A DNA stretch of 64,000 nucleotides from Cycloclasticus sp. GTDB taxonomy: Bacteria > Pseudomonadota > Gammaproteobacteria > Methylococcales > Cycloclasticaceae. The notes beneath the pieces are model-generated. The model was given only the letters and a program-made list of their open reading frames with translations. It had not been told where the DNA came from and made no database searches. The number at the start of each line of letters is the position of its first letter. The first letter of the stretch is position 1. Positions 22,553 through 41,881 of the stretch are shown here, in pieces. The stretch is taken from positions 992,001 through 1,056,000 of the forward strand of contig JBFLJU010000001.1 in the NCBI GenBank assembly GCA_040743155.1, read 5' to 3'. The translations under genes and the position numbers were made by a program.

Positions 22553-22628
22553 GGGGCCATAGCTCAGCTGGGAGAGCGCAACACTGGCAGTGTTGAGGTC
22601 AGCGGTTCGATCCCGCTTGGCTCCACCA
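22553..22628 (+). tRNA. tRNA-Ala (anticodon GGC)
   Basis: A complete 76-base cloverleaf with acceptor GGGGCCA/TGGCTCC (one G-T pair), anticodon stem around CTGGCAG with GGC at 22586-22588, T-loop TTCGATC and encoded CCA. It starts 41 bases after gltX. Confidence 0.96.
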
Positions 22629-22685
22629 ATTTTTGGTGAACTAAAGTGATTTAGACGATACACTTTAGTAGTAAATAAAGACTTA

Positions 22686-22761
22686 GTCCCCATCGTCTAG
22701 AGGCCTAGGACACCGCCCTTTCACGGCGGTAACAGGGGTTCGAACCCCCTTGGGGACGCCA
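22686..22761 (+). tRNA. tRNA-Glu (anticodon TTC), copy 1
   Basis: A 76-base cloverleaf: acceptor GTCCCCA/TGGGGAC, anticodon stem CCGCC/GGCGG, TTC at 22720-22722, T-loop TTCGAAC and encoded CCA. It is part of the first duplication unit. Confidence 0.97.
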
Positions 22762-22770
22762 TATAAAACA

Positions 22771-22800
22771 GCCACTAACAGCAATGTCAGTGGCTTTTTT
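22771..22800 (+). terminator. Terminator after tRNA-Glu copy 1
   Basis: GCCACTAAC pairs with GTCAGTGGC (one A-C mismatch) around AGCAAT and is followed by six T residues. Confidence 0.85.
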
Positions 22801-22820
22801 ATGTTTATACGGAACATTGC

Positions 22821-22877
22821 GAGTGCAAAACACTTGTCGTGTTGAGGTCAGCGGTTCGATCGCGCTTGGCTCCACCA
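22821..22877 (+). pseudogene. Broken tRNA-Ala copy (3' part only)
   Basis: The 3' two thirds of tRNA-Ala are still readable, from the D-arm to the CCA end, with the variable and T-arms nearly intact. The 5' acceptor strand and most of the D-arm are missing, one base is inserted before the anticodon stem, and the GGC anticodon loop is changed to CTTGTCG. It cannot fold as a tRNA and is a by-product of the tandem duplication. Confidence 0.85.
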
Positions 22878-22932
22878 CTATTGGTGAATAAAAGTGATTT
22901 AGACGATTCACTTTAGTAGTAATAAAGACTTA

Positions 22933-23008
22933 GTCCCCATCGTCTAGAGGCCTAGGACACCGCCCTTTCACGGCGGTAACAGGGGTTCGAACCCCCTTGG
23001 GGACGCCA
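22933..23008 (+). tRNA. tRNA-Glu (anticodon TTC), copy 2
   Basis: Identical by eye to the copy at 22686-22761, including the encoded CCA. It lies in the second duplication unit and should be functional. Confidence 0.96.
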
Positions 23009-23017
23009 TATAAATCA

Positions 23018-23047
23018 ACCACTTACAGCAATGTAAGTGGTTTTTTT
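23018..23047 (+). terminator. Terminator after tRNA-Glu copy 2
   Basis: ACCACTTAC pairs with GTAAGTGGT around AGCAAT, followed by a T run. Compared with the first copy, both arms changed and pairing is retained or improved. Confidence 0.85.
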
Positions 23048-23061
23048 ATGTCTATACGGAA

Positions 23062-26528: not shown

Positions 26529-26886
26529 TTTAGTTTCAATATGTTATTGTGAAAACATAAACTTATTTAAGGTAAAGACCCTAATGCTTTTAAACTCCTT
26601 AGTAGTTACGTTTTAGATATGTAAGTTAACAATCTCAGACCCTTTAGCTGGGTTTGTATAATGTATTCTATTTAACATAATATACATTATGCGAAGTAGG
26701 ATATTCAGTAAAGATAGGCAGGAAAAGGCTCACAGCGTCTACTCTAGAATAATCAGGGAAAACTTTTCCCGAGGTTCATAAAGGCTTTTGGAGACTTTAG
26801 GCGTTCGATCTGTTGCTTTAGCCTGGTGTTCTCTTCAGCACGAAAACCAATCGTCATCTTTAGATATTTGTGTGCGCGGGATTTGC
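26529..26886. other. Spacer between umuC and the transposon
   Basis: No gene that I can support. An inverted repeat (ATAATGTAT at 26658-26666 with ATACATTAT at 26682-26690) lies here without a T run. On the minus strand 26760-26890 a short open frame with a charged coiled segment (EENTRLKQQIERLK) can be read, but it lacks a start and family marks. This was the left flank of the transposon target. Confidence 0.45.
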
Positions 26887-26892
26887 CTAGTG
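26887..26892. repeat. Left target-site direct repeat of the transposon (CTAGTG)
   Basis: CTAGTG here and at 41876-41881 flank the inverted repeats. The last G overlaps the first of four G residues of the terminal repeat, so the true duplication may be the 5 bp usual for Tn3 family (CTAGT or TAGTG). Confidence 0.8.
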
Positions 26893-26930
26893 GGGTAAGT
26901 TAGGATATTTTTATTGAACAGGCAAAAATA
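26892..26930 (+). repeat. Left terminal inverted repeat
   Basis: A 39-base end starting with four G residues, as most Tn3-family ends do. It matches the reverse complement of 41838-41876 at 32 of 39 positions. Confidence 0.9.
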
Positions 26931-26944
26931 TCGCATAAGATATT
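26927..26944. repeat. Small 6-6-6 palindrome inside the left end
   Basis: AATATC and GATATT flank the six bases GCATAA. It overlaps the inner edge of the left inverted repeat and has no counterpart at the right end. It could be a recombinase or regulator site, or chance in AT-rich DNA. Confidence 0.35.
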
Positions 26945-27056
26945 GATTTTAGACGGCTTCCCATTATATTTAGCTCTAGCTAGCTATAATAGGTGTCCGA
27001 CAATATTGGGAGAAAAACATCCCTAGGATCACTTTAACCAATTGATATACTGATCA

Positions 27057-28292
27057 TTATACCTCTCGGTTTTTCCCACTTTCAGCACGTTTTCGATCTT
27101 CTGACTGCACATACACAGTATCAGTAGTCGCCATGCTGGAGTGACCTAGGTCCTCTGATAAGTCTTTTAAGGCGCGACCTCGTTCAATCTCCAAACTGGC
27201 ACCTGTATGGCGTAGCCAATGGGTAGAGACCTCTTTGAATTTGCGTGCTATTTCTTCACCCTGCTGTTTTTTCATCGCTTCATACGCTTGATCAAATACC
27301 TCTTGCACCAATCGAGATAGCTGCCGCGCTGACATGCCACCACTTCCACGCAATTTTTCAACAATAGGGTGACTTTCACCCTCTAAGGGTAAGCTACTCA
27401 TACCTCGGTATAAGCGATAGCGTTTTAGATAGGGCATAAAACTGGAAGGCACCGTTATATCGCGTAACTTACGGCCTTTACCATAGACTTTAAGCCACCA
27501 GTTTTTGTGCGCATCTTCCCAAAAATGCCCCATAACGGGCATCCAATCAGGGCGCTCAGAAAACTCAGAAATTCGTAAAAAAAGTGTTTTTAAAGCCGCT
27601 ACCAAAAACAAATTACGCTCATAGCGTGGGTTATCATCAGCCATAACCGTTGCAGTTTTTAATAAAAACAACCATTGGTCTTCAGATAACCTCTTCACAT
27701 CTTTCACCTGGGCATCTTTGATAAAGTAACGACAATCCTTTTTAGCTAACTGGGCGGGATTGCCCATACAGTATTCTTCATCCATTAAGTACTTATAAAA
27801 AGCAATAATGGCCGTAAAAGTTGCCTGCAAAGTCTGTTGCGATGGCCGATACTTTTTCTTATCAGGCGTTGAATTGTCACCTTTAGAAACGACTAAGCGA
27901 TAAGGTGACCAAGCTTTGTTCTGCACATATGTTCCATCACCTTTAGGCTGAAACTTTTCGTGATTCGTTAAACAGATCCAAGTCTGCGGTGGTTTCCAAC
28001 AAAAATCAGCATAGTCTAGAATATCCGTTTTACGAAACTCATCACAAGCTTTCTCTTTAATGACGAAGCTCCATAACAAGAACTTTTCGATTTCAGAACG
28101 AAAGCGTGTATAGGTGTGTTGTGATTTGTTGCGCCCAATGTAGGAAAGAAATTCTCGTCCCCATAGCCAACTTTGTTTACGCCAACGTGGGCCAGAAGAT
28201 ATAAAAGATGACAACTCTGGAAACTCATCGAGCTGAACATCTTTAAGCTCCTTATAAGTTGGATACAGTGCGACAGGCTTATGAATGGCCAT
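27057..28292 (-). CDS. Tyrosine site-specific recombinase of the transposon
   Basis: A 411-residue phage-integrase-type recombinase. Catalytic residues visible in order: Arg in LKTLFLRISEFSE, Lys in YGKGRKLRDI, His-x-x-Arg in HWLRHTGASLE, the GH pair in LGHSSMATTDT and the nucleophile Tyr in TVYVQSE. An N-terminal core-binding domain precedes. Most Tn3-family elements resolve cointegrates with a serine resolvase; a few (Tn4430, Tn4651) use tyrosine enzymes, and this protein probably has that role here. It is transcribed toward the left end, far from tnpA. A 38-bp palindrome 42 bases upstream of its start is a good candidate for its crossover site. Confidence 0.85.
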   Translation of the reverse strand: MAIHKPVALYPTYKELKDVQLDEFPELSSFISSGPRWRKQSWLWGREFLSYIGRNKSQHTYTRFRSEIEKFLLWSFVIKEKACDEFRKTDILDYADFCWKPPQTWICLTNHEKFQPKGDGTYVQNKAWSPYRLVVSKGDNSTPDKKKYRPSQQTLQATFTAIIAFYKYLMDEEYCMGNPAQLAKKDCRYFIKDAQVKDVKRLSEDQWLFLLKTATVMADDNPRYERNLFLVAALKTLFLRISEFSERPDWMPVMGHFWEDAHKNWWLKVYGKGRKLRDITVPSSFMPYLKRYRLYRGMSSLPLEGESHPIVEKLRGSGGMSARQLSRLVQEVFDQAYEAMKKQQGEEIARKFKEVSTHWLRHTGASLEIERGRALKDLSEDLGHSSMATTDTVYVQSEDRKRAESGKNREV

Positions 28293-28334
28293 ATTTAACC
28301 CAGAAATTGTTTTTATGAGTATATAAGGCTTATC

Positions 28335-28372
28335 TCACTATGTCCAATACTAAACGGTATTGGTCATAGTGA
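28335..28372. repeat. Dif-like 16-6-16 palindrome: candidate recombination (res) core site
   Basis: TCACTATGTCCAATAC (28335-28350) and GTATTGGTCATAGTGA (28357-28372) are inverted copies (15 of 16 match) around the 6-base centre TAAACG. Two 11-16-bp arms spaced by six to eight bases is the usual form of a tyrosine-recombinase core site. It lies in the leader of the recombinase gene, so binding could also repress that gene. Confidence 0.7.
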
Positions 28373-28650
28373 ATATTTTGTCATCTATGTTAAATCAGAA
28401 CCTTATGAGTAATATCAATGCTTAAGGTCAGCCGAGGGCTACTCTCCTTCCAATGTTGTCGAACACCCATCATTCAAAAAATAGTCTCTTCATCTTCTTT
28501 TCATAGCCTTGTTAGGCGCATTATCCGCCACGGTATGACAACACGCCTTTGAGACCTGACGAATTCACACCCGAAGAGCTGAATACCTTTTTCAGAATAG
28601 CGAGGCCAATAGCGGGAGTGCGAGGCTCAACACCTGACGTGTGATATTAA
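28373..28650. other. Non-coding stretch between recombinase and repressor genes
   Basis: No gene seen. Together with the palindrome it forms a 358-base gap that would carry the recombinase promoter and possibly accessory res sequences. Short repeats of CCTGACG (28555 and 28632 region) are present. Confidence 0.4.
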
Positions 28651-28926
28651 TCATTTTAAATAACTTTTTAAAACCAAGATTACTTGTTCTACTTCTTCTG
28701 TTCGCCTTTCCTTTGACAGCTCTTCTGCGCCCAAATGTTCTCGCAAATGACCTTCCAATACTTCTTTCATTAGTCCATTAACTGCACCTTTTATAGCCGC
28801 AATTTGCTGCAAAACTTTCATGCAATCAGGCTCTCCCTCTAATGTATTTTCTAAAGCTATTGCCTGTCCTTTAACCTTTCGAACACGAGTTAGCAACTTC
28901 TTTTTACCTATGGTTGTATGAGACAT
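28651..28926 (-). CDS. RcnR/DmeR-type nickel/cobalt-sensing repressor
   Basis: A CsoR/RcnR-family (DUF156) all-helical repressor. From ATG at 28926 it is 91 residues, the RcnR length, and begins MSHTTIGKKK. The RcnR metal ligands are all present with the same numbering: His3, Cys35, His60 and His64. That set is typical of Ni(II)/Co(II) sensors rather than the Cu(I)-sensing CsoR. The open frame extends 17 codons further upstream, but the shorter start restores His3 and has an AGGTG ribosome site. It is divergent from dmeF, with a G-rich palindromic operator between them. Confidence 0.9.
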   Translation of the reverse strand: MSHTTIGKKKLLTRVRKVKGQAIALENTLEGEPDCMKVLQQIAAIKGAVNGLMKEVLEGHLREHLGAEELSKERRTEEVEQVILVLKSYLK

Positions 28927-28943
28927 ATTACACCTGTTTTTAA

Positions 28944-28968
28944 TACTATACTGGGGTACAGTATAGTA
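28944..28968. promoter_or_regulatory. Operator of the RcnR-type repressor
   Basis: TACTATACTG (28944-28953) and CAGTATAGTA (28959-28968) are perfect 10-bp inverted arms around GGGTA. The layout TACT-G(n)-AGTA resembles the E. coli RcnR site. It lies 18 bases before the repressor start and 53 before dmeF, so one site would control both genes. Confidence 0.8.
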
Positions 28969-29020
28969 GTAAGCCAAGAAATTACATTTATAGGCAATAA
29001 AATTATAGTTAGGAGCACCC

Positions 29021-29938
29021 GTGCAAGACGATAACAGTATTCAATGGGATCATTCGCATGATTTCGGTATTGATAATAAGCACCGAGAAAATAAAGTGAA
29101 GATAGTCTTTTGGTTGACGACCATCATTATGGTGCTTGAGATTACCGTTGGTACAACGTCTGGGTCAATGGCCCTACTTGCTGATGGATGGCACATGGGA
29201 ACACATTCCGCAGCGTTCCTAATTACAATATTCGCGTACTCTTACGCTAAGAAACATGCTGACAATAAAAGCTTCAGCTTTGGAACCGAAAAAGTTAATT
29301 ACCTTGGTGGCTTTGCTAGTGCTGTTGCACTTGCAATCGTTGCTTTTATGATGGCAATAGAATCCGTCCAGCGACTAATTGAGCCTCAGATGATTTTTTT
29401 CAATGAGGCAATTATCGTTGCCATAATTGGGCTTGTAGTCAATATAGCTTCAGTCTTCGTTTTACATGAAGATCATCACCATCACGGTGAAGAACATGAT
29501 GATCACCACCACGATCATAATATGAAAGCAGCTTATTTTCATGTTCTAGCAGACACATTGACTTCACTACTGGCCATTATTGCATTACTTACCGGTAAAT
29601 ATTATGGCTGGATTTGGATGGACGCAGTTATGGGTATTGTTGGTGCAGCTGTTATTTTGCGGTGGTCTTATGGGCTAATTAAAGAATCTAGTAATGTTCT
29701 GCTCGATAAAACTGTCAGCTTTACTTCCTTTGCCAAAATAGCGAAAAATATGAAGGAGGAAAATAATGCAATTATTAACGATATACACATCTGGAAAGTT
29801 GGAACATCACATCAAGCCGCCATCCTTTCAGTTGTTACTGAAGAACCGCTTGAGCCTTATTTTTACAAACGCATCTTAAAGCAACACCTACCTCGGCTGT
29901 CCCATATATCGATTGAGGTTAATGTCGCCGCCCAATAA
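29021..29938 (+). CDS. dmeF: CDF-family Co/Ni efflux transporter DmeF
   Basis: A 305-residue cation diffusion facilitator that exports Co(II)/Ni(II) by proton antiport. Six helices are seen; helix 2 has HxxxD in ADGWHMGTHS, helix 5 has FHVLADTLTS, and a His/Asp-rich loop (about 147-166) joins helices 4 and 5. The N-terminal HSHDFG and helix-5 context match DmeF, whose gene is commonly paired with a DUF156 regulator as here. Start is GTG after AGGAG. Confidence 0.88.
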   Translation: MQDDNSIQWDHSHDFGIDNKHRENKVKIVFWLTTIIMVLEITVGTTSGSMALLADGWHMGTHSAAFLITIFAYSYAKKHADNKSFSFGTEKVNYLGGFASAVALAIVAFMMAIESVQRLIEPQMIFFNEAIIVAIIGLVVNIASVFVLHEDHHHHGEEHDDHHHDHNMKAAYFHVLADTLTSLLAIIALLTGKYYGWIWMDAVMGIVGAAVILRWSYGLIKESSNVLLDKTVSFTSFAKIAKNMKEENNAIINDIHIWKVGTSHQAAILSVVTEEPLEPYFYKRILKQHLPRLSHISIEVNVAAQ

Positions 29939-29989
29939 AAAGTGTACTATTAACAGCAGCAACAGCGAGGTTTAGTTATTGAAATCATT

Positions 29990-30193
29990 TTGAAATCTAC
30001 TCTCTATTACCCAGAATGTGGTCATAAGGAAACAGAAGCAATGCCCACAGATTCTTGCCAATGGTTTTATGAATGCAAGGGTTGCGGTGTGCTGCTCAAG
30101 CCAAAGCCTGGGGATTGTTGTGTTTTTTGTTCTTACGGTTCTGTACCGTGCCCTCCCATTGAGCAAGGCACAAGCTCTTGTTGTTCGTCGTAA
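29990..30193 (+). CDS. GDCCVxC-domain small Cys-rich protein
   Basis: A small protein with PECGHKETEAMPTD, then CKGCG, then GDCCVFCSYGSVPCPP, the signature of the GDCCVxC family found next to mercury and other metal-resistance genes. It is rich in Cys, ending SSCCSS, so it probably binds metal; function is not known. The ORF start given is TTG. The frame stays open upstream to 29954, and family members usually have a few more residues, so an ATT at 29978 after GAGG may be the real start. It follows dmeF by about 50 bases. Confidence 0.75.
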   Translation: MKSTLYYPECGHKETEAMPTDSCQWFYECKGCGVLLKPKPGDCCVFCSYGSVPCPPIEQGTSSCCSS

Positions 30194-30292
30194 CTAAAAC
30201 GCATGATACGCATTAGGCTGTCGCGTTTGACGGGCGACTTTGGAGACTTGGGTGTCTCAAAAACTTTAACGAGATAGTGACTCACTTGATAG

Positions 30293-30913
30293 CTACTTTA
30301 AGTCAATACTTAAAGCGCCCTTAGCCTCACGAATAACACCCCAAGCAGAGCGCATAACGATTATGGCAATGATCAAGCCAATAATAATGTCCGGCAACGG
30401 TGAGGAGAACCAATAAACCAAGCCAGCAGCAATTAGCACGCCGACGTTGTTAATCATATCGTTGCGCGTGCATAGCCATGTGGCTCGCATATTGATGTCC
30501 CCGTCTCGATACGCCATTAACAAGAAGAAAGATATTGAATTAGCGATAAGTGCTAACACCCCAAACACCCCCATATTGAAGGCATCTGGTATGTTATTGG
30601 TGCTTATGAGATAGATAGGCTGAACCAGAATTCCTAGACCTAATACCATTTGAAAAATACCACTGGTGAGCGCTGCCCGATTTTTCCAATGTTCCGCACG
30701 CCCTAGGGCAAAAAGCCCTAGAGCGTAAACTAATGCGTCCGCCAACATATCAAGCGAGTCTGCCATGAGCGCAGTGGAGTGACTAATAAGGCCTGCCGCG
30801 AATTCAACAAAAAACATACTGGCGTTTATAAGTAAAACGATAATCAATACGCGCTTCTGTTGTTTCGTTGCTGTCGCTATTTTATCGCTGGAACAGCTGT
30901 CACATCCGGCCAT
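30293..30913 (-). CDS. Small CDF-type cation transporter
   Basis: A 206-residue, six-helix cation-efflux protein without the C-terminal cytoplasmic domain of usual CDF transporters. The N-terminus GCDSCSSD could hold metal; the metal site of helix 2 is DSLDMLAD, with Asp replacing the usual His, and helix 5 has CTRNDMINN. It is the last gene of the czc-like operon, eight bases after the RND gene, and likely moves metal from cytoplasm to periplasm for the RND pump. Confidence 0.82.
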   Translation of the reverse strand: MAGCDSCSSDKIATATKQQKRVLIIVLLINASMFFVEFAAGLISHSTALMADSLDMLADALVYALGLFALGRAEHWKNRAALTSGIFQMVLGLGILVQPIYLISTNNIPDAFNMGVFGVLALIANSISFFLLMAYRDGDINMRATWLCTRNDMINNVGVLIAAGLVYWFSSPLPDIIIGLIIAIIVMRSAWGVIREAKGALSIDLK

Positions 30914-30921
30914 GATATCCC

Positions 30922-33900
30922 CTACTCCGCATTATGTTGTTTTGAAAAATACGAATATAACGCAGGTATTACCACTAGTGTTAATAAGGTTGCTGAGAAA
31001 AGCCCGCCAACGACAACCGTTGCTAGTGGCTTCTGTACTTCTGAGCCAATTCCTGTCGCCATTAACATCGGAATAAGCCCAAGTGCAGTGGTTGCGGCGG
31101 TAATGAGCACAGGACGTAAACGTGACACAGCACCCTCAAACACGGCTTGTTCACTAGATAGCCCATCTTCAATGCGTTGATTAATGGCATTGATCATCAC
31201 CACGCCATTCAATACCGCAACACCAAACAAGGCAATAAAGCCAATTGAACCCGGTACAGACAAGTATTGACCAGAGATAAATAATGCAACGATACCGCCA
31301 ATCATTGCTAGGGGCACATTCAACATAATCAATAAGGATTGCCCGACAGAGTTGAATGCAAAATACAGCATTAAAAATATCATTCCCAGTGAAACCGGAA
31401 CGACAATCATCAGCTTATCTTGTGCTCGTTTTTGGTTTTCAAACTGCCCACCAAACACAACGGTATAACCATCAGGTAAATCTATCTCGTCATTGATTCG
31501 CTGACTTATTTCCGCTACAAGACCACCCATATCTCGACCTTCAACATTGGATTGGATAACCACTCGCCGTTGCACATCATCTCGACGGATTTGTGGTGGA
31601 CCCGATTCTATTTTCACCTCAGCTACATCAGCTAATCTAACCCATGCGCCGTTTGGTGCTTGTAAGGTGATGTTTTGAATGGCTTCCATGCTGTTGCGAT
31701 AACCCGCATCCAAACGAACGGTAATATCATAACGTTCGTTGCCGTTAATGACTTGACCTGCCTCCATACCACCAATGGCATTAGCGACTAAGTTCATTAC
31801 TTGCGCAACAGGAATGCCATAACGAGCTAATGAATCGCGATTAGGGCGAATAGCCAATTGAGCTTCACCCGCAATTTGTTCCATTTCAACGCCTCGGGTA
31901 CCCTCAATTTTGCGAACCAAGCCTTCAATTTCTTTACCGGTGCTAGCAAGCGTGGCTAAATCTGGACCAAACAGTTTTATAGCTAATTGTGCTTTTACAC
32001 CCGACAGTAATTCATCTACGCGAGTAGCAATGGGTTGTGAAAATGAGAACAGCAAACCAGGATGAACTGACATCTTTTCCTCCATCAATTTTTGTAATTC
32101 TTGACGGTTGGATGCGCTTGTCCATTCATTTACAGGCTTCAAACCAACAAATATTTCAACGTTGGATACAGGTTCTGGGTCGCCACCAATTTCAGCACGT
32201 CCCGCACGGCTTGAGACGTATAACACTTCAGGGAATGTCATTATTTTGTCTTCAAGTTTCGCAGCAACACCTAGCGAAGTATTAAGGCTTGAAGAGGGGG
32301 CCAGTGTAACGCGAATATTTAAGGTGCCTTCTTCCAATTCAGGCACAAACTCTGTGCCAAGAAAAGGCACTAAAGCGAGTGAGCCAATAAACAAGATGAC
32401 GGCGCTAAAGACAATTTTACGAGGTGCACTTAAAGCCCGTGATAACAGCGGGCGGTACATATTGTCAAAAAACGCCATAATTGGATTCTCTTTTTCTTTA
32501 ACCCCGTGACGGAACATGTATGTTGCCAGCGCGGGCACAATAATAAGCGCAACTAATAACGAGGCTAACATCGCCAATACAATTGAAATAGCCATTGGCT
32601 GGAACAACTTGCCTTCGACACCTTCCAAAGTAAATAATGGCGCGAATACGATGATAATAATCATCACCGCAAAGAACACCGGACGGCCCACTTCACGGGC
32701 AGCTTCTTGGATGCGAAGCGCAATTCCATGATGGTCTTGAGCCGCGTTATATGGATCGGGTGCACCTTCCGCTAGCACTTCTTGAGCGTATTGGTGGTGC
32801 TCCTTATCAGGCTTACTTAAATGACTGAAAACATTTTCCATCATCACAACCGAACCATCTACCATCATACCGATAGCAATGGCTAAGCCACCTAACGACA
32901 TGAGGTTCGCTGAAATACCCCAATAGGCCATAAACATGAGCGCTAAACCGACCGATATTGGCATTGAGATGAGCACCAAAAAGGCGGCACGGATGTTCAT
33001 TAAAAACAGCATTAAGACAACGACAATCAACACGAATGCTTGCAATAATGCTGAGCTTACCGTATTAACAGCTTGATCGACCAAGTCTGCTTGATCATAA
33101 AAAGGCTCAATAGTCACACCGTCCGGTAACGCCGTTTGTATCGCGGGTAGTCTTGCCTTAATACCATCGATAGTCGCTTTTGTATTAGCGCCTAAGCGTT
33201 TCATTACGATACCTGCTACTACTTCGCCCATTGCAACTGGGTTTCCTTTAGCATCACGGGTAGACATGGTCACTGCACCTTGACGAATTTCAGGGCCAAA
33301 ATCGACCACTGCCACATCACTGACTCGTACTGATACGCCATCTATATTTTTTAACGGAATATTACCGATGTCACGCAAACCCTCGTTGTCACTGCGTACC
33401 CAGCCTACACCACGAATAACGAGTTGTTCCGCACCTCTGTCTAAATACCAACCACCTGCGTTACGGTTATTTTTTTCAATAGCTTCAGCAATATCACTAA
33501 TGGTTAGTTGATAAGAAAGTAATTTACTGGGGTGTACTTGCACTTGGTATTGTCTTACTTCACCACCAAATGACAAGACTTCTGTTACCCCACTAACAGG
33601 CATTAACAGCAGTTTTACCACCCAATCGTTTAGACTACGCAAGGCAATGGCATCAAATTTCTCAGGGTCATCAGTGCGCAAAATGTATTGATATACTTGC
33701 CCAAGTCCTGAAGTATTTGGCCCCATTTCAGGGGTTCCAATACCATCTGGAATTTGCTCACGAGCAGATTGCAGGCGTTCAAAAACCAGTTGCCGAGCAA
33801 AATAAATGTCGGTACCTTCTTTGAAAACGACAGTGATAACAGATAGCCCCGTTTTAGATATTGAACGAACCTCTTTAACGTCAGGAAGGGCATACATAAC

Positions 33901-34113
33901 GGATTCAATAGGAAAGGTGATTAGCTGCTCTACTTCCTCCGAAGCAAGCCCACGAGCTTCAGTATTAATTTGTACTTGAACATTGGTTACGTCCGGAAAG
34001 GCATCAAGGTTGAGTGAAGGTAATATTAGTGTTCCGCCAACAAATGTCGCGAGCAGCGAAAGCACGACCAGTAGGCGGTTATTAATACCGAGGTCAATAA
34101 TTTTATTTAGCAT
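30922..34113 (-). CDS. Heavy-metal RND efflux pump, CzcA/CusA family
   Basis: The 1063-residue inner-membrane proton/metal antiporter of a tripartite efflux system. Twelve helices with two large periplasmic loops are seen; the helix-4 motif is AIGMMVDGSVVMMENV, which carries the essential Asp and Glu. The AIG start differs from the DFG of classical Zn/Co/Cd CzcA and is nearer to Cu/Ag or Ni types, so the name CzcA is only a family label. RcnR and DmeF on the same element favour Ni/Co. It is preceded by the adaptor gene (10-base gap). Confidence 0.9.
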   Translation of the reverse strand: MLNKIIDLGINNRLLVVLSLLATFVGGTLILPSLNLDAFPDVTNVQVQINTEARGLASEEVEQLITFPIESVMYALPDVKEVRSISKTGLSVITVVFKEGTDIYFARQLVFERLQSAREQIPDGIGTPEMGPNTSGLGQVYQYILRTDDPEKFDAIALRSLNDWVVKLLLMPVSGVTEVLSFGGEVRQYQVQVHPSKLLSYQLTISDIAEAIEKNNRNAGGWYLDRGAEQLVIRGVGWVRSDNEGLRDIGNIPLKNIDGVSVRVSDVAVVDFGPEIRQGAVTMSTRDAKGNPVAMGEVVAGIVMKRLGANTKATIDGIKARLPAIQTALPDGVTIEPFYDQADLVDQAVNTVSSALLQAFVLIVVVLMLFLMNIRAAFLVLISMPISVGLALMFMAYWGISANLMSLGGLAIAIGMMVDGSVVMMENVFSHLSKPDKEHHQYAQEVLAEGAPDPYNAAQDHHGIALRIQEAAREVGRPVFFAVMIIIIVFAPLFTLEGVEGKLFQPMAISIVLAMLASLLVALIIVPALATYMFRHGVKEKENPIMAFFDNMYRPLLSRALSAPRKIVFSAVILFIGSLALVPFLGTEFVPELEEGTLNIRVTLAPSSSLNTSLGVAAKLEDKIMTFPEVLYVSSRAGRAEIGGDPEPVSNVEIFVGLKPVNEWTSASNRQELQKLMEEKMSVHPGLLFSFSQPIATRVDELLSGVKAQLAIKLFGPDLATLASTGKEIEGLVRKIEGTRGVEMEQIAGEAQLAIRPNRDSLARYGIPVAQVMNLVANAIGGMEAGQVINGNERYDITVRLDAGYRNSMEAIQNITLQAPNGAWVRLADVAEVKIESGPPQIRRDDVQRRVVIQSNVEGRDMGGLVAEISQRINDEIDLPDGYTVVFGGQFENQKRAQDKLMIVVPVSLGMIFLMLYFAFNSVGQSLLIMLNVPLAMIGGIVALFISGQYLSVPGSIGFIALFGVAVLNGVVMINAINQRIEDGLSSEQAVFEGAVSRLRPVLITAATTALGLIPMLMATGIGSEVQKPLATVVVGGLFSATLLTLVVIPALYSYFSKQHNAE

Positions 34114-34123
34114 GGTTGTGACC

Positions 34124-35311
34124 TCAATGGTTATGAATACTAAAACCAGACTTTGCTAATTCTGATTGTAAAAAGAATGCACCGTGAGTTACCACGCGAG
34201 AGCCTGCTTTAATACCCTCAATGACGGTAACTCCCTGATTTGTTCGTAGCACCTCAACTTCTTGCGGTTCAAATTGATTGTCTTCGTGCTCGATAAATAC
34301 CATCCAATCACCGTCCGGGCTGCGTAAAACCGAATCAGCAGGAACGGCTAACGCTTTTTCTGTGTTAGTCGCTGCAATGCTTACGTCAACAAAAACACCT
34401 GAGTGTAATACGTCATTAGGGTTCGCTACTTCGATACGAACACCAATGGTACGTGTGCTTTCATCCAAAGAATGATGGCGTTGAATAACCTTTCCCTTTA
34501 ATGTTTTTCCAGCAAAATTAACATCGGCCGTAGCATCTATTTGCACGTCTTGTACTTGATTTGCAGTTAATCGAGCATCTACCCAAAGTTTCGTTTCATC
34601 ACTAATTTTAAATAACATTCGACCTGCTTCAACAGCCTCACCCAATGTAAATTGATCCTGAATTACGGTGCCACTTTGCAGTGCTAACAGTTGGAAACGA
34701 CCGTTGGCTAGTCTGCCATTACCAGCTTTCAGCATGGTGTTCACTTGCTGTTGATTCATACCATATGCTTGCACTTTTGCACGTGCCAGTTCATTGTTTA
34801 CTTTGGCTTGTATATATCGAGCCGCAGAAACTACTTTTTGGCCTAACTTTCGAACTCGGTTCCACTCTCGAGCGGCCACTAAAAGGTCACCTTGTGCCTG
34901 TGCCATTTCAACACTAGAGAGCGTGACTAATGGTTGCCCCATAGATACTAAGTCACCTAGTTTTGCATGTCTCTTAACAACTTGAGCATTAATAAGTGAT
35001 ACAGCCTGACTAGTTGCATAGGCATTTAGGGTTATTTCCCCTGGCGCGCTAATGTTGCGGGTTATATCCGTTAACTGAATGGCCGTAGTTGAAATGCCAG
35101 CTGCTTTTTGTTGAATGGCAGTTAAATGAATTCCTTCTTCTTCCTGCGTATCGTCACTTTCTTCAGTGTGTGCAGTTTTGTGGTTATGATCATCATCTTC
35201 TTCAGTGTGCGGGGTTTTCTTGTCATGGTCATCTCCTTCTGATGCATGGATAGTTTGAGCACCTGATAGCGTTAAAAGAGCGACCAAAAAAACGGTATTA
35301 AATTTATTCAT
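34124..35311 (-). CDS. Periplasmic adaptor (membrane-fusion) protein, CzcB/CusB family
   Basis: A 395-residue HlyD-type adaptor joining the RND pump to the outer-membrane channel. It has a signal peptide (about 1-23), then a repeated acidic/His-rich metal-binding region (about 24-56), then lipoyl halves (ISAPGEITLN ... KRHAKLGDLVSMGQPLV), a helical hairpin and a beta-barrel (DARLTANQVQDVQI). The order czcC-czcB-czcA with gaps of two and ten bases indicates one transcript. Confidence 0.9.
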   Translation of the reverse strand: MNKFNTVFLVALLTLSGAQTIHASEGDDHDKKTPHTEEDDDHNHKTAHTEESDDTQEEEGIHLTAIQQKAAGISTTAIQLTDITRNISAPGEITLNAYATSQAVSLINAQVVKRHAKLGDLVSMGQPLVTLSSVEMAQAQGDLLVAAREWNRVRKLGQKVVSAARYIQAKVNNELARAKVQAYGMNQQQVNTMLKAGNGRLANGRFQLLALQSGTVIQDQFTLGEAVEAGRMLFKISDETKLWVDARLTANQVQDVQIDATADVNFAGKTLKGKVIQRHHSLDESTRTIGVRIEVANPNDVLHSGVFVDVSIAATNTEKALAVPADSVLRSPDGDWMVFIEHEDNQFEPQEVEVLRTNQGVTVIEGIKAGSRVVTHGAFFLQSELAKSGFSIHNH

Positions 35312-35313
35312 TG

Positions 35314-36591
35314 TTATTCTCCACTGCCTAACTTCTTAGGGCTGTTGTTTGTTAGTAGGTTGCTTTTTGATCTTGTCCATCTAGCAATATCCCCTGAGGC
35401 GATGAGCCATTTGGTCCAGGACTGCCAAAGTTTGGCGCGTTGCCTAATGACACTTTCCTCGGTATCAAGTGATTGTTTAAGTTGCACCAAGTAGTCGGCC
35501 GTACTTAATTCACCTGCTTTCCATAGACGGCCTAACAGTTTTTCTTTTCGTAATAAATGCTGACCTCCGGTTGCTTTCCACTGAACCCATGCTTGACGAT
35601 TAACCTGAAGTGTTTGTTCTGCTGAAGCCAGTTGAGCGAGTAATGCTTGTCTCGTACTTGTTGCTTCATATTCACGCTGTATAAGCAGTAATTGGGCGGC
35701 TTCTACTTCAGCGCTTAAATTATTTCGTACAAACAGAGGCATTGAGAAACTAAGGCTCGTTAAATTGTCGCTGCCTTCCTTACCAGTTTTTATTCCAATA
35801 CTTGGGTTAGGGCGTTGTTCGCGTTGACGTAATTTAATTTCTGCACGAGCAATGTTCATTCGAGCACGGGCTAGGCGCATTTCTGGTAAGCGATCGAGTA
35901 ATTGATTTGAATCTTTTATCGGATATTCAGAGTTGTTAGGTACATCACTCATTATTGGTAATGATGTTATTGGTGCGTTACCCCCATTCCCTAATACCAT
36001 GTAAAGATTTTGTTTATTGATAATTAATTCAGAACGAGCACCGGCTAATTCAAAACTGGCTTCGCTGCTTGCTAATTGTGCCAGAGCTAGTTCAATTTCA
36101 GCAAGGTCTCCAGCTTGATAGCGTTGTTTGGCAATGCTGAAAAATTGTGACATTGAATCTGAACGTTTTTCGATTACTTTCAGAGTATCAATACTGGCTT
36201 GATATGTAGCCAATGCCAATAGAATTTCAGCTGTTAATTTCTGCTGTGCAACAGTTAATTCGGTGAGGCTAAGTTGCAGCTTATAATCCGCAACACGTGT
36301 TTGCGCAAATCGTTTATCACCCCAATCAATGCTCTGGGTGATACCTGCTGTTTTTGTGTCAACACCTGCTTGTTCATACTCAAGCTCAAGCTCTGGGTTG
36401 AACAAAGGCTGATCGGCAGCACGAAGTTCAGCTGTTGCCTTATCAGCAGCAGCTTGTGTGGCTTGTAATCTTGGGTGCTGTTGTACTACTTGGCTTAGCC
36501 AGTTTTCGAGTTTTTGTTGCTCGTTAGCGCCGGCTGTTGGAGATAACAATAAGGCACATGTAAAAAGGCTAATGACATTTAAAAATCTCAT
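35314..36591 (-). CDS. Outer-membrane efflux channel, CzcC/TolC family
   Basis: A 425-residue outer-membrane factor with a signal peptide (MRFLNVISLF..., cleavage near AGA-NEQQ) and two long helical repeats of the OEP family (for example KATAELRAADQPLFNPELEL and RARMNIARAEIKLRQREQ). The open frame reaches 36669, but ATG at 36591 gives a clean signal peptide after AGGAATT. Its stop is two bases from the adaptor start. Confidence 0.88.
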   Translation of the reverse strand: MRFLNVISLFTCALLLSPTAGANEQQKLENWLSQVVQQHPRLQATQAAADKATAELRAADQPLFNPELELEYEQAGVDTKTAGITQSIDWGDKRFAQTRVADYKLQLSLTELTVAQQKLTAEILLALATYQASIDTLKVIEKRSDSMSQFFSIAKQRYQAGDLAEIELALAQLASSEASFELAGARSELIINKQNLYMVLGNGGNAPITSLPIMSDVPNNSEYPIKDSNQLLDRLPEMRLARARMNIARAEIKLRQREQRPNPSIGIKTGKEGSDNLTSLSFSMPLFVRNNLSAEVEAAQLLLIQREYEATSTRQALLAQLASAEQTLQVNRQAWVQWKATGGQHLLRKEKLLGRLWKAGELSTADYLVQLKQSLDTEESVIRQRAKLWQSWTKWLIASGDIARWTRSKSNLLTNNSPKKLGSGE

Positions 36592-36681
36592 GATAATTCC
36601 TATATATAAAATAAAACAAACACAATTTAAATTTATGAATCGTGTAGGTATGCCGGCTATAACCGACAAAATTATTAGGAA

Positions 36682-37008
36682 TTAGCTAAGAGGGGGGCGC
36701 TGGGGCGGGCTGGTTTGAAGTGATTGAAAAAGTGAGCTATATGTCAAGTTGTGACGCTTAGCCACGTGAGGCGACACTTTTGTGTATAGACCAACCAAGC
36801 CTAATAAGTGAGCTCCTGCATGACAGCAGTGATCATCATCTAGGTGATTGTCTTGATCACTCGTTAGGTCAGTGTTGTGTAAATCAGCTGGTTGAAACGT
36901 GGTCTGTTGGTGTTTCCCTGCAATATCATCATGACCACTCATTGACCACACACTGCTATAGCTCAGTGAGCTAAGAATCATAAGTAATAGCATTAAGTGT
37001 TTAAGCAC
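36682..37008 (-). CDS. CzcI-like His-rich periplasmic protein
   Basis: A 108-residue exported protein: signal peptide (about 1-22), then a His/Asp-rich stretch with DDHCCHAGAH, and a C-terminus ending PPQRPPLS. Small proteins with this signal-His-Pro layout (CzcI) head czc operons and seem to adjust metal control. It begins the czc-like operon, about 90 bases before the channel gene. Assignment is by layout and context. Confidence 0.65.
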   Translation of the reverse strand: MLKHLMLLLMILSSLSYSSVWSMSGHDDIAGKHQQTTFQPADLHNTDLTSDQDNHLDDDHCCHAGAHLLGLVGLYTKVSPHVAKRHNLTYSSLFQSLQTSPPQRPPLS

Positions 37009-37296
37009 AATGAGGGGGTGTTGGAAACATTGTGGCAGTCTAACCTTTAGAATTATAGGTTGTCAAATTATTAGTGTTATTGCTAAATCAAATGGTTTGG
37101 CTGGGCCAGAACATTATTTTGAAATCATTTCTTAGCCGTAATTTTTATAGATAACCGTGAGCAATATGAGAAATGAATATAACAAGACTATATTTAAGGC
37201 GCCTTGTGGACACCACATCAGCTTCGTAGGGGCTAGAACGAGACCGTCAATCTCCTAAAATCCGCTTTTTTATCTATCAGGTTTTTCGCAAAAGCA
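37009..37296. other. Gap with the presumed promoter of the metal operon
   Basis: About 290 bases without a gene, upstream of the CzcI-like gene and downstream of the SprT-like gene (both minus strand). I see a short AACCT/AGGTT inverted repeat near 37040-37060 and no copy of the RcnR-type operator. Confidence 0.45.
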
Positions 37297-38064
37297 TTAT
37301 TCATTGCATTCAAACACCCTATCACAATCTTCACAGCGAATATTTAACTGCGCCTTACCGTAAACTTTAGTATCACAACCTGAACAGATATAACGATACC
37401 TAGTTTGACGCTTCGCCGCTTCAGGGATCAAAAAATCTGATATGGGTGAATCAGTGGGTTTAACTAACTCCGACAGTGTCGGCGTTGCTTTAACAGGCAC
37501 AGAAGCTAAGACTTTGTCAGGCTCAGTCCCATTTGAATTGACCATGGGTGCTATTACCGGCTCGAATAGACGTGGCAATGAGCGTCGATCCATCCACTTA
37601 AGCTGATACCCTTTATCATCAGATAGCTGTTGGAAAGTTCGAATAAATGGCCCATCTTCAATAATGTAATCACTCATAAACTGGCCAGTAATTCGTCCAC
37701 CCGGCTCTCCTGTCGAGGAAGGCATCAACCCAACTTCAATCATTTTTAAGGCCCATTCTTTATTATGGTAATAATCACGGCCGGGATGACCAAAACAGTG
37801 CTGCCAGCAATGTGCCATTTCATGGACCAACGTCTGCATCACTTCAATTAGTCTTGAATTGGCAATATACGCTGGATTAATCGCTATTTCGCTGCATTTA
37901 GTACCATCAATACCTCCCCAACGCTCAGGTGCAAAATAGCCCATGACCCCTTTTTTACGTTGTACTGTAAAAATTACGCTCGGTAATTTACCTCCAAATA
38001 AAGCTGTATTGAAATGCTCATAGGCATCCAACAGTGATGTATAAAGTTCAGAGGTAGGGTTCAT
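37297..38064 (-). CDS. SprT-like zinc metallopeptidase
   Basis: A 255-residue protein with an SprT-like domain: zinc motif HEMAHCWQH (HExxH) near residue 81, family flanks YEHFNTALFGGKLP and SEIAINPAYI, and a C-terminal zinc ribbon with CSGC and CEDC pairs. Eukaryotic relatives (Spartan) cut DNA-protein crosslinks; bacterial SprT proteins on plasmids and transposons are uncharacterised. It is divergent from a small unknown ORF, with a perfect palindrome between. A role in freeing or protecting transposon DNA is possible but unproven. Confidence 0.85.
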   Translation of the reverse strand: MNPTSELYTSLLDAYEHFNTALFGGKLPSVIFTVQRKKGVMGYFAPERWGGIDGTKCSEIAINPAYIANSRLIEVMQTLVHEMAHCWQHCFGHPGRDYYHNKEWALKMIEVGLMPSSTGEPGGRITGQFMSDYIIEDGPFIRTFQQLSDDKGYQLKWMDRRSLPRLFEPVIAPMVNSNGTEPDKVLASVPVKATPTLSELVKPTDSPISDFLIPEAAKRQTRYRYICSGCDTKVYGKAQLNIRCEDCDRVFECNE

Positions 38065-38217
38065 TAATTGCTCAATAATATTGAATTATGGTCGCTGTAC
38101 AACAATAAATAATACAGGGATTAGCAATTTATTGCATTTTGAAGATAGAGAGGATTGTTACTTAAATAACAAAAAGGAATTAAAAAGACTGTTCTTATAA
38201 CCATAATCACGAAAACG

Positions 38218-38233
38218 TGTAGTGTACACTACA
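38218..38233. promoter_or_regulatory. Perfect 16-bp palindrome between divergent genes
   Basis: TGTAGTGTACACTACA is its own reverse complement. It lies between the SprT-like gene (starts 38064, minus) and the small ORF at 38351 (plus), where an operator for divergent promoters would be. The binding protein is unknown. Confidence 0.6.
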
Positions 38234-38350
38234 AATATTTGCGCTTTTGGTTATATCAAGTGGCTAATACTGTATAAAAAGTTATAGAAACGGTATTACG
38301 CGATTAGATATGGCACGATTTCAATAATAACAAATTAAGAGCAAAAGCCT

Positions 38351-38581
38351 ATGCCCAATCTTAAAATTCTTTCTACCACTCGCAGACGTACATTTAATGA
38401 TGCACCTAAGCTATCGTCTAATGCACGATACAGCTACTTTTTGATTGACGCTGATACGCGTAAAGCCATCAACATCTTACATACAGATATAAATTGTTTG
38501 AAGAGCAGTCAATCGATTGAACTCTTGCCCAAGAAAAGGCCTGGGCTTCAAAACTCGAGCGCAGTTAAAGAACGACCATAG
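38351..38581 (+). CDS. Unknown 76-residue transposon protein
   Basis: I do not recognise this small basic protein (many Arg and Lys; no signal or membrane helix). It begins MPNLKILSTTRRRTF and has a short alpha/beta-like middle (YSYFLIDADTRKAINIL). The ribosome site is weak (AGAGC). It lies between the palindrome and tnpA, in the same direction as tnpA, and might be a regulator; this is context only. Confidence 0.45.
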   Translation: MPNLKILSTTRRRTFNDAPKLSSNARYSYFLIDADTRKAINILHTDINCLKSSQSIELLPKKRPGLQNSSAVKERP

Positions 38582-38717
38582 GGGGGGGTGATGCACTTTA
38601 GATTTTAATCCGCGTTACAAAATACAAGATTCATCCAGTATAACGAGTAAACTTTATGATTTAGACAATGATTGCGTATTTCAAGTTAACGCAGTCTGAT
38701 AAATAGCGACTATAACA

Positions 38718-41700
38718 ATGACAACAACTCAAATCATTCCCTATTCTATTAGCAGTAGATTTCAACGCCCTCCCAAATTTACAGCAGAAGAAAGGCGCGC
38801 ATTCTTTTTTATCACTCCAGCAATACGCAAGGTCTTACCGAGGAAATCAGCTATTCACAAAGTTGGGTTTGTTCTTCAATTGGGTTATTTTTCAGCCACA
38901 AGACAGTTTTATAGTACCGAACATGTACGTAATAAAGATAAAGGTTTTATAGAAAAAATGTTGGGAATTAAAACTCCTGTCGATTTATCGTCATATACCC
39001 AATCAATACAGAAGCAACACCGAGCTAAGATTAGAATGTTATTTAACTGGCATATTGCTACACCTGAAGATAGGTTAGCACTGCAAGATCACGCATTTAA
39101 TTTCGCTAATAAGCGCATGCCTGCTGAGCAACAATTCTTTCAGTTAGTCAGTATATGCTGGAAACGTCAATTTGATATTCCGAATTTTAAAACACTTCAA
39201 AACTACATAAACGAAGGTTATCTAAAGTTTGAATCAAGGCTTATTGCCTCTTTCTCGACACATTTTGATGATAATCAACAACAACTGGTTAGTAATATCT
39301 GTCAAACCGCTGATGATGCCAAGATATTACTGAATAAAAAATATGACCACTCAGATAGCACTCGACACTTTTGGAAAAATATAAGTCTGCTTGAAAATTA
39401 TCGAGCCTATCATGCTGCGGTATTACCTACCCTGTCAAAATTAAATCTTTATGATGAGTCGTTCAGGTTTTTCGCTAAATGGATAAAAGAAGCTACCTTG
39501 AGACAAATTTTGTCCATGCATAAAAAAGGCAATGCATCACTGAGGATACTCTGTTTTATACGTGAGGAATATTATCAACGCAATGATTACGCCTGTTACT
39601 CCTTCATTAAAGAAATTAAAAGCTGTATTACGAGGGGAAAAAGAAGCCAAAAAATTGAGAACGAGGAGCAAGAAGAAGCGTTTGCTGAACAAGCAATAAC
39701 CGTTATTGACTACGCAAAAACAGCAGACGCAATTATAAAGCTTGTTTATAAGGTGCAAAAAGACCCTTCAGTGAGTTTTGCTGAAAAACATACTCAAACA
39801 TTAGATCACATAGATCGTTATTTGGAAGCCATAAACCCTGAAATAATGACTACAACAGACCGGCTAAATAATAAATTAACGGGCAATACGGCATCTATAA
39901 ATTACTATTTATCCTTAGAAAAGGATGCAGAAAAAGTATTAAGAAAATATCGATCAATGTTAAAGGTTATTGAGTTTGACGAAAAGTACTCGGATAACAA
40001 CATCATCCAGGCAATTAAACATTACAACCAATCAAATGGTAAATATACCGAAGACCTACCCCTCTACTTCTTGAAGAAAAGTGAAAAAACACAGCTATTT
40101 GAAAATAATATAAAAAACATGAAGCTATATAACATGTTGTTTATGGTTGAAGTGTGTGAAGCGCTAAGGTCTAGGAGATTATGCTTAAAATATTCATTTA
40201 ATCACTTACCAGAAGAGCATTATGGTATTACTAGAAGTGAGTTCGAGGAAGACGAAGATCATATCCTAGAGCTGGCAAACTTAGAAGGCTTTAAAGATAT
40301 AAGCGGCATACTTAAAAAGAAAAGGGAAGCTGTGGATGCTGCGTTCAAAAATGTTAATGAGGGTTTAATTAATGGTGAAAACCCTCACCTTAAATTTACG
40401 AAGAAAGGTTACTGGCATATTAATACGCCTAAAACTGATTATGATATCACCAAAGTAATTCCCGGTTTACTTGGCGATAATGGATCAGTAACTTTGAGTA
40501 AAGTCATACGCGAAGTAGATGAATTTATAGGTTTCTCTGAACTTTTTAAGCATTCTCATATTGTAGGCAGCAAGAAAAAAGTACCTAGTGAGTTAATGTA
40601 TGCTGTCATTGTCAGCCTAGGTTGCAATATCAGCTTTCGCCAAATGGCGAATGCATGTGGGTCATCAATTACTGAAAGTAAGCTTCAGCATGCAAATGAC
40701 TGGCTATTCTCTAAGGAATGCATAAAAAATGCAAACAACCTAATAGTAGAAGAAATTAATTCTTTATCATTACCAAATATTTTCAAATTAAATCCTGATA
40801 CCGACCATGCCAGCAGTGATGGAGCTAAGATCACTGTTGCCGTCAATTCGATTTTAGCCAATTTTTCATTCAAGTATTACGGTAAAGAATCTGGAGTTGT
40901 CGCAAATTCTTTTATCAATGAAAAATCTGCTTTTTTTCATGCAAATATTCAAAGCTCGACAGATCGAGAAGCTCTATATATGCTCGATGCATATTCTGGT
41001 AACTCAGTTGTTAAAAGCAACAACCCTAGCCACTCCGGTGATTCTCATGTTTACACTGATGCAATATTTGGCGCAACTGATATGTTCAAGATCTCTTTAG
41101 CACCTAGAATTGCAAATGCAGGTAGACAAGTCCTAAGAGGTTTTAGCCGGTCGCAAGTCAAAAAAAGAAACAGTCATGAAATTGCTCCTACGGGTGTTAT
41201 AAATACAAAACTTATAAAACGTAATTGGAAGGAAATGTTAAGAACTATTGCGTCGATAAGTCTTGGACGCGCATCTGCATCAGAGACTTTTGATAGGCTG
41301 GCAAGAAGTGAAAAGCAAAATGAGCTTTATCGTGCTTTTAAGGAATATGGACGAATCAACAAAACAATCTTCCTGCTAGAGTACTTTGATAATATCGAAT
41401 TAAGACAAAGAATTGAAAAAATGCTTTCGCTCGTTGAGCTGGGACAGAAGCTATTTAGGGCTGTTTTTCATGGTAGACAAGGCAAGCTTTATCAGTCTGA
41501 GCCGGAAGATATGGAAAGAGTTATTTTATGTACAACACTTATCAGGAACATCATCATTTGTTGGAATTATATTGTGCTATCGGACATTATTATTGATGCC
41601 CCACCCAATGAGCAACGCTTTTTAATTGAATCTATTAGCAAAGGATCTGTACTCTCTTGGGCTCACATCAATATGTTTGGTGAATTTGATTACTCAAGTC

Positions 41701-41762
41701 GTTACAAATCGAGCATAAAAGCAGATATTAATACAATACGTAAATTTAAGGTTCCCAGTTAA
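38718..41762 (+). CDS. tnpA: Tn3-family transposase
   Basis: A 1014-residue transposase, the normal length for Tn3 TnpA. The N-terminal part shows the family DNA-binding region (FTAEERRAFFFITPA...). The catalytic DDE triad is Asp701 (ASSDGAK), Asp781 (VYTDAIFG) and Glu876 (KEYGRINKTIF). No stop or frameshift interrupts it, so it should be active. It ends 76 bases inside the right inverted repeat and transposes the element by copy-in replication, giving cointegrates that the tyrosine recombinase would resolve. Confidence 0.95.
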   Translation: MTTTQIIPYSISSRFQRPPKFTAEERRAFFFITPAIRKVLPRKSAIHKVGFVLQLGYFSATRQFYSTEHVRNKDKGFIEKMLGIKTPVDLSSYTQSIQKQHRAKIRMLFNWHIATPEDRLALQDHAFNFANKRMPAEQQFFQLVSICWKRQFDIPNFKTLQNYINEGYLKFESRLIASFSTHFDDNQQQLVSNICQTADDAKILLNKKYDHSDSTRHFWKNISLLENYRAYHAAVLPTLSKLNLYDESFRFFAKWIKEATLRQILSMHKKGNASLRILCFIREEYYQRNDYACYSFIKEIKSCITRGKRSQKIENEEQEEAFAEQAITVIDYAKTADAIIKLVYKVQKDPSVSFAEKHTQTLDHIDRYLEAINPEIMTTTDRLNNKLTGNTASINYYLSLEKDAEKVLRKYRSMLKVIEFDEKYSDNNIIQAIKHYNQSNGKYTEDLPLYFLKKSEKTQLFENNIKNMKLYNMLFMVEVCEALRSRRLCLKYSFNHLPEEHYGITRSEFEEDEDHILELANLEGFKDISGILKKKREAVDAAFKNVNEGLINGENPHLKFTKKGYWHINTPKTDYDITKVIPGLLGDNGSVTLSKVIREVDEFIGFSELFKHSHIVGSKKKVPSELMYAVIVSLGCNISFRQMANACGSSITESKLQHANDWLFSKECIKNANNLIVEEINSLSLPNIFKLNPDTDHASSDGAKITVAVNSILANFSFKYYGKESGVVANSFINEKSAFFHANIQSSTDREALYMLDAYSGNSVVKSNNPSHSGDSHVYTDAIFGATDMFKISLAPRIANAGRQVLRGFSRSQVKKRNSHEIAPTGVINTKLIKRNWKEMLRTIASISLGRASASETFDRLARSEKQNELYRAFKEYGRINKTIFLLEYFDNIELRQRIEKMLSLVELGQKLFRAVFHGRQGKLYQSEPEDMERVILCTTLIRNIIICWNYIVLSDIIIDAPPNEQRFLIESISKGSVLSWAHINMFGEFDYSSRYKSSIKADINTIRKFKVPS

Positions 41763-41837
41763 AAAGGATATTGTTTTTTCTGCTTTTAAAATGCCGAAAT
41801 AAAAATAAATATTTCGTTTAAACAGTAACTTAGATCT

Positions 41838-41876
41838 TATTCTTAACTGTTCAGAGTAAATATCCTAACTTACCCC
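41838..41876 (-). repeat. Right terminal inverted repeat
   Basis: Read on the minus strand it starts GGGGTAAGTTAGGATATTT and then TGAACAG after four differing bases, matching the left end at 32 of 39 positions. Confidence 0.9.
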
Positions 41877-41881
41877 TAGTG
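41876..41881. repeat. Right target-site direct repeat (CTAGTG)
   Basis: Same six bases as at 26887-26892. Joining the flanks at one copy restores a continuous umuC to hydratase-aldolase spacer. Confidence 0.8.

Follow-up and report, generated by a model that had tools for sequence, protein, structure and literature searches.

The tyrosine recombinase XerL of Legionella resolves chromosome dimers alone, at a palindromic dif site close to the replication terminus, and XerL systems have been reported from Legionellales only (PMC9765430). Here we describe a recombinase gene and a dif-like palindrome in front of it, in a stretch of 64,000 nucleotides from a Cycloclasticus genome (contig JBFLJU010000001.1, positions 992,001 to 1,056,000; hereafter the window, with positions counted from its first base). 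Gene and palindrome lie in a Tn3-family transposon next to the dif site of the host. We consider it likely that an XerL-type recombinase uses the palindrome as its dif-like core site, and that the two together form a module for dimer resolution, at home at chromosome termini and on chromids and plasmids, that a Tn3 transposon has captured.

The likeness to XerL/dif lies in a single tyrosine recombinase of about 410 amino acids (aa) and in its site, a palindrome of about 30 bp near the terminus whose long arms are symmetric. The window enzyme is 35% identical over 362 aa (241 bits) to a Legionella adelaidensis gene beside clpP and tig, versus 32 bits for XerC of its own host. That the L. adelaidensis gene is xerL we infer from its position, which is that of xerL in L. 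pneumophila, and from its tyrosine (Tyr385, against the published Tyr387 in L. pneumophila); the homology to XerL was measured with this gene and not with Lpg1867. An L. adelaidensis record named plasmid 9 (L199) has clpP and tig together with clpX and spoT and resembles a piece of a chromosome. A published relative of xerL is carried by a Coxiella plasmid. Unlike the Legionella systems, the window module occurs outside Legionellales, on a Tn3 transposon, in a host that also has XerCD/dif.

Other described systems share single traits with the locus. XerS/difSL and XerH/difH are dimer-resolution systems with a single recombinase and a site beside its gene (PMC5357621), but by name they belong to other recombinase groups. 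TnpI/IRS of Tn4430 and Tn5401 is likewise a Tn3-family case in which a palindromic core adjoins the gene of a tyrosine recombinase; there, tnpI runs colinear with tnpA and is accompanied by the accessory sites DR1 and DR2 (PMC7157771), whereas the window recombinase and tnpA are not colinear and sit at opposite ends. No further half-site within two mismatches was found near the window core, except one inside the repressor gene, and the window recombinase matches a TnpI-like Legionella protein with 26 bits only. Tn3 transposases related to the window TnpA are found on plasmids of Legionella and Bandiella (L021, 4126-8051; L022, 4138-8060), where a TnpI-sized tyrosine recombinase overlaps the start of tnpA. 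TnpS-TnpT/rst of Tn4651 also resolves by a tyrosine recombinase away from tnpA in a Tn3-family element; in contrast, the window has no divergent tnpT, the neighbor of its recombinase is a metal repressor, and its enzyme is not similar in sequence to TnpS of pWW0. TnpR of the carbapenemase transposon Tn4401 (L069, 10421-12136) is a tyrosine recombinase and not a serine resolvase. It is a distant relative of the window enzyme (24%, 92 bits) from a Tn3-family transposon, but it has 571 aa and adjoins tnpA divergently, and no matching palindrome was seen in its leader. Finally, the R27 Y-rec is a replicon-borne tyrosine recombinase whose dimer resolution is redundant with XerCD (PMC11724359). This experimentally established dimer resolvase is not a detectable homolog of the window enzyme, to which it has no significant sequence similarity.

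The palindrome and its recombinase

The palindrome reads TCACTATGTCCAATAC-TAAACG-GTATTGGTCATAGTGA. Its two arms of 16 bases are complementary at 15 of 16 positions, with one mismatch, around a center of 6 bases, and it lies upstream of the recombinase gene, 42 bases from the start at 28292; arms, center and distance all agree with the first-pass annotation. Such a structure is genuine and well outside what chance would give, being the only one of its quality in the 64 kb (arms of 16, at least 15 matches, center of 0 to 20), and none of equal quality occurred in 12 simulated first-order Markov windows. Site and recombinase gene are each single-copy in the 2.56-Mb genome, and a scan of IMG/VR for exact matches to the site was negative.

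Relatives keep the inner 30 bp, comprising 12-base arms and the center. When the sites are aligned on the center, the 12-base arms have a mean information content of 1.56 bits per position, the center 1.38 and the flanks 0.40; arm symmetry beyond 12 bp was not significant across all sites (P about 0.09). Conserved arms around a variable center had been expected beside homologs. The arms behave as expected, but the center is semi-conserved, being TGTTTA in many relatives, and does not vary freely.

A palindrome with the same arm sequence accompanies intact close homologs (41-90% identical), save for exceptions named below. Agarilytica, Pseudomonas and Alteromonas carry such homologs on plasmids and Pseudoalteromonas carries them on chromids; in Kangiella, Colwellia and Cellvibrionaceae they are on contigs. 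The site can stand well away from the start of the gene, 1.9 kb upstream (L011), 0.65 kb upstream (L012) or 0.24 kb downstream (L016), and in Colwellia maritima (L017) a second copy occurs downstream; the two copies there (9875-9898 and 12510-12533) are inverted and flank the recombinase together with a neighboring 384-aa gene. One homolog (L013) has a center of 8 bases. A motif match also lies beside a recombinase that is 36% identical to the window enzyme and 54% to a Legionella one (L058). Among relatives at a greater distance, the palindromes are different ones or are missing from the vicinity.

We scanned 2.86 Mb of fetched DNA for GTCYRATAC-N6-GTATYGGAC, allowing up to two mismatches. 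Matches at zero or one mismatch fell exclusively beside recombinases of the family, and two strays appeared at two mismatches; this DNA was largely fetched because it holds the family, so the scan measures the specificity of the motif and not its abundance. Because the arms are kept beside nearly every intact close homolog examined, also away from the promoter, and occur nowhere else in this DNA at up to one mismatch, the adjacent tyrosine recombinase of 411 residues very probably has its core site in this palindrome. This part of the first-pass annotation is supported by every sequence test available. The arms are unrelated to XerCD dif, and the XerD arm TTATGTTAAAT is absent from them.

The catalytic residues of the enzyme (Table 1) all align, indicating a complete tyrosine recombinase. 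The tree places it in a marine clade with full support; Legionella-like and Pseudomonas-plasmid groups are nearby. A structure predicted from 8 sequences was poor (mean predicted local distance difference test score 59) and was left unused. Homology to the presumed xerL of L. adelaidensis, the catalytic residues, a site of 12+6+12 bp and its closeness to the terminus mark the window pair as XerL-type.

Replication termini and the neighborhood of dif

A search for the host dif returned one exact site, where GC skew changes sign, and the palindrome lies 1.65 kb from this dif and from the GC-skew maximum. Relatives show a similar placement. The palindrome is about 0.7 kb from a dif2-like site in three Pseudoalteromonas chromids and about 0.04 kb from it in a fourth, while the skew switch lies within about 4 kb of the recombinase gene in C. 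maritima, about 12 kb from it in Kangiella, and about 6-12 kb from it in two further genomes (G296 and G309). Contigs for the skew analysis were picked for length, not location. The combined P for terminus location, with the window excluded, is below 1e-6, a rough value into which approximate distances were entered. A scan of 53 family-bearing genomes for canonical dif gave few matches; made without a control set, it is silent on replacement. On one Pseudoalteromonas chromid (L070, 1-3213), phage-like replication genes stop right at the dif2-like site beside the recombinase, as a Xer-exploiting element would.

Several observations weigh against a dimer-resolution module of this kind. The host has XerC, XerD and a canonical dif, so the module is not its only Xer system and a chromosome role is not required of it here; for the same reason we file the module as XerL-type and not as the host's own XerL system. 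The window site is linked to its gene, whereas L. pneumophila xerL is over 400 kb from its dif. For three copies (G223, G400 and G332), the skew switch is 65-144 kb away, and the closest homolog (90%, L014) is not on the dif-bearing contig of its host. As to the site, a truncated homolog (L015) lacks it, the arms differ in L009, and a single arm is recognizable in one Pseudoalteromonas chromid (L073).

It is conceivable, though we think it unlikely, that the family is found at termini only because dif regions gather mobile DNA, in which case the copies would be selfish inserts with no part in dimer resolution and the Tn3 insertion near dif would be a coincidence. The prophage genes that abut dif2 in Pseudoalteromonas, the prophages reported near dif2 (PMC7858055) and the mobility of the window transposon itself would all fit this explanation. 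It sits poorly with the Colwellia and Kangiella copies, which are lone recombinase genes next to ordinary genes, and with a location common to unrelated lineages at the combined P given above. The related XerL, moreover, is a proven dimer resolvase (PMC9765430).

The carrier transposon

A complete Tn3-family transposon spans about 26893-41875 and carries both recombinase and site. It has a DDE transposase, terminal inverted repeats and a short target duplication (Table 1), which is the 6-bp CTAGTG if the repeat is read as starting GGGTAAG; the usual Tn3 target duplication is 5 bp. When the two flanks were joined into one query, five congeneric genomes gave alignments spanning the junction and are thus empty sites. 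The sequence that the transposon interrupts (26765-26892), continuous in the five congeners and beside dif, has the appearance of a small coding gene's terminal part. Between the end of the recombinase gene and the nearer transposon end are 165 bp, and tnpA lies at the opposite end.

The whole genome has no match to the serine resolvase family PF00239. This absence, together with the position of the pair inside a Tn3 element, makes cointegrate resolution plausible. The recombinase is the element's only candidate cointegrate resolvase, and the module probably resolves the transposon's cointegrates. The first-pass annotation had proposed a distinct resolution module of the Tn3 element. Cointegrate resolution stands as plausible, but specificity to Tn3 does not, as close homologs with the site occur on plasmids, chromids and chromosomes that have no related tnpA in the neighborhood, in a family that is XerL-type and associated with termini.

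It is improbable that the pair is proper to this transposon lineage and resolves only its cointegrates, in the manner of TnpI/IRS. Both do lie within the transposon of a genome without a serine resolvase, and tyrosine resolvases serve other Tn3 elements (PMC7157771; Tn4401 TnpR), but no close homolog was found in a related Tn3 element, the draft genome of the 90% homolog has no Tn3 transposase match, and no accessory arm copies of the TnpI kind were seen near the core. NORP108 was considered as a second Tn3-borne case and rejected; its Tn3 transposase adjoins a recombinase fragment that appears to come from gene interruption.

In most leaders, the gene-proximal arm provides the -35-like hexamer of a predicted promoter, with the -10 about 17 bp further on. 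Since the arm supplies this hexamer, autoregulation is likely, and the bound recombinase probably represses its own gene. That the palindrome is merely an operator or hairpin controlling the gene, with recombination taking place elsewhere, is very improbable, for although one arm overlaps a well-placed predicted promoter in most leaders, three homologs have the site at a distance from the gene, the arm-center-arm size equals that of a dif site, and transcription is predicted to start downstream of the conserved core, which is therefore not an mRNA hairpin from that promoter.

Table 1. Positions of the module, its transposon and the host dif in the window
Feature	Position	Strand	Remarks
Host XerCD dif	26670..26697	-	ACTTCGCATAATGTATATTATGTTAAAT; 195 bp outside left transposon end, at GC-skew switch
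Target duplication CTAGTG, left copy	26887..26892	none	repeat read as starting GGGTAAG
Left terminal inverted repeat	26892..26948	+	outer 19 bases identical to right end
XerL-type tyrosine recombinase, 411 aa	27057..28292	-	R240, K272, H358, R361, H384, Y394
Likely recombinase promoter (prediction only)	28318..28346	-	-35-like TGGACA 28346-28341 in gene-proximal arm; -10 TATACT 28323-28318; spacing 17
Dif-like palindrome	28335..28372	none	arms 28335-28350 and 28357-28372; center TAAACG 28351-28356; conserved core 28339-28368
Passenger region	28651..38064		metal-responsive repressor, DmeF-type Co/Ni exporter, second cation exporter, CzcABC-like efflux genes, SprT-like protein
Tn3-family transposase TnpA, 1014 aa	38718..41762	+	PF01526 and NF033527 matches
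Right terminal inverted repeat	41820..41876	-	
Target duplication CTAGTG, right copy	41876..41881	none	

Three further features of the window stand apart from the module. A second palindrome between the SprT-like gene and tnpA (38196-38255; 78% over 32-base arms) is centered on a perfect GTAGTGTACACTAC and is possibly an operator. Just outside the transposon, a gene of the dihydrodipicolinate synthase family (42108-43106) resembles an aromatic hydratase-aldolase; taken together with the genome size, this gene suggests that the organism degrades aromatics in the sea. At 22569-23061, a stretch containing tRNA-like sequences recurs in tandem with about 248-bp spacing and 96% and 85% identity.

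A proposed mobile dimer-resolution module

In the mechanism we propose, each 12-bp arm would be bound by one of two recombinase subunits, with cleavage where the arms meet the 6-bp center, and directly repeated sites on a dimeric replicon or a transposition cointegrate would recombine to give monomers. Enzyme on the gene-proximal arm would overlap its own promoter and repress the gene. The family as a whole would be a self-contained module that resolves dimers at chromosome termini and on chromids and plasmids. One copy would have been captured by the Tn3-family transposon, which is inserted 195 bp from the host XerCD dif. At the terminus, the module could also resolve chromosome dimers, backing up the host system.

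A survey from 2009 placed Colwellia psychrerythraea and Saccharophagus degradans among large-chromosome proteobacteria without dif/Xer and left open how their dimers separate; there was no evidence for a loxP/Cre-like substitute, and Cre/loxP can replace dif only at the terminus (PMC2731167). XerL later gave an answer, but for Legionellales alone (PMC9765430). We suggest tentatively, as a possibility that falls somewhat short of probable, that where gammaproteobacteria are reported without XerCD/dif (relatives of Colwellia and Saccharophagus) a gene-linked XerL-type module takes its place, and that the module is mobile, having been carried by Tn3 to the terminus of an XerCD/dif host that would now have two adjacent dimer-resolution sites. 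Such a module could answer how the relatives that lack dif/Xer resolve their dimers. With a candidate enzyme, site and position now named for Colwellia, Kangiella and Cellvibrionaceae, the question of dimer resolution becomes directly testable, and the copy that landed beside a dif site on a transposon suggests a possible route by which such systems may spread.
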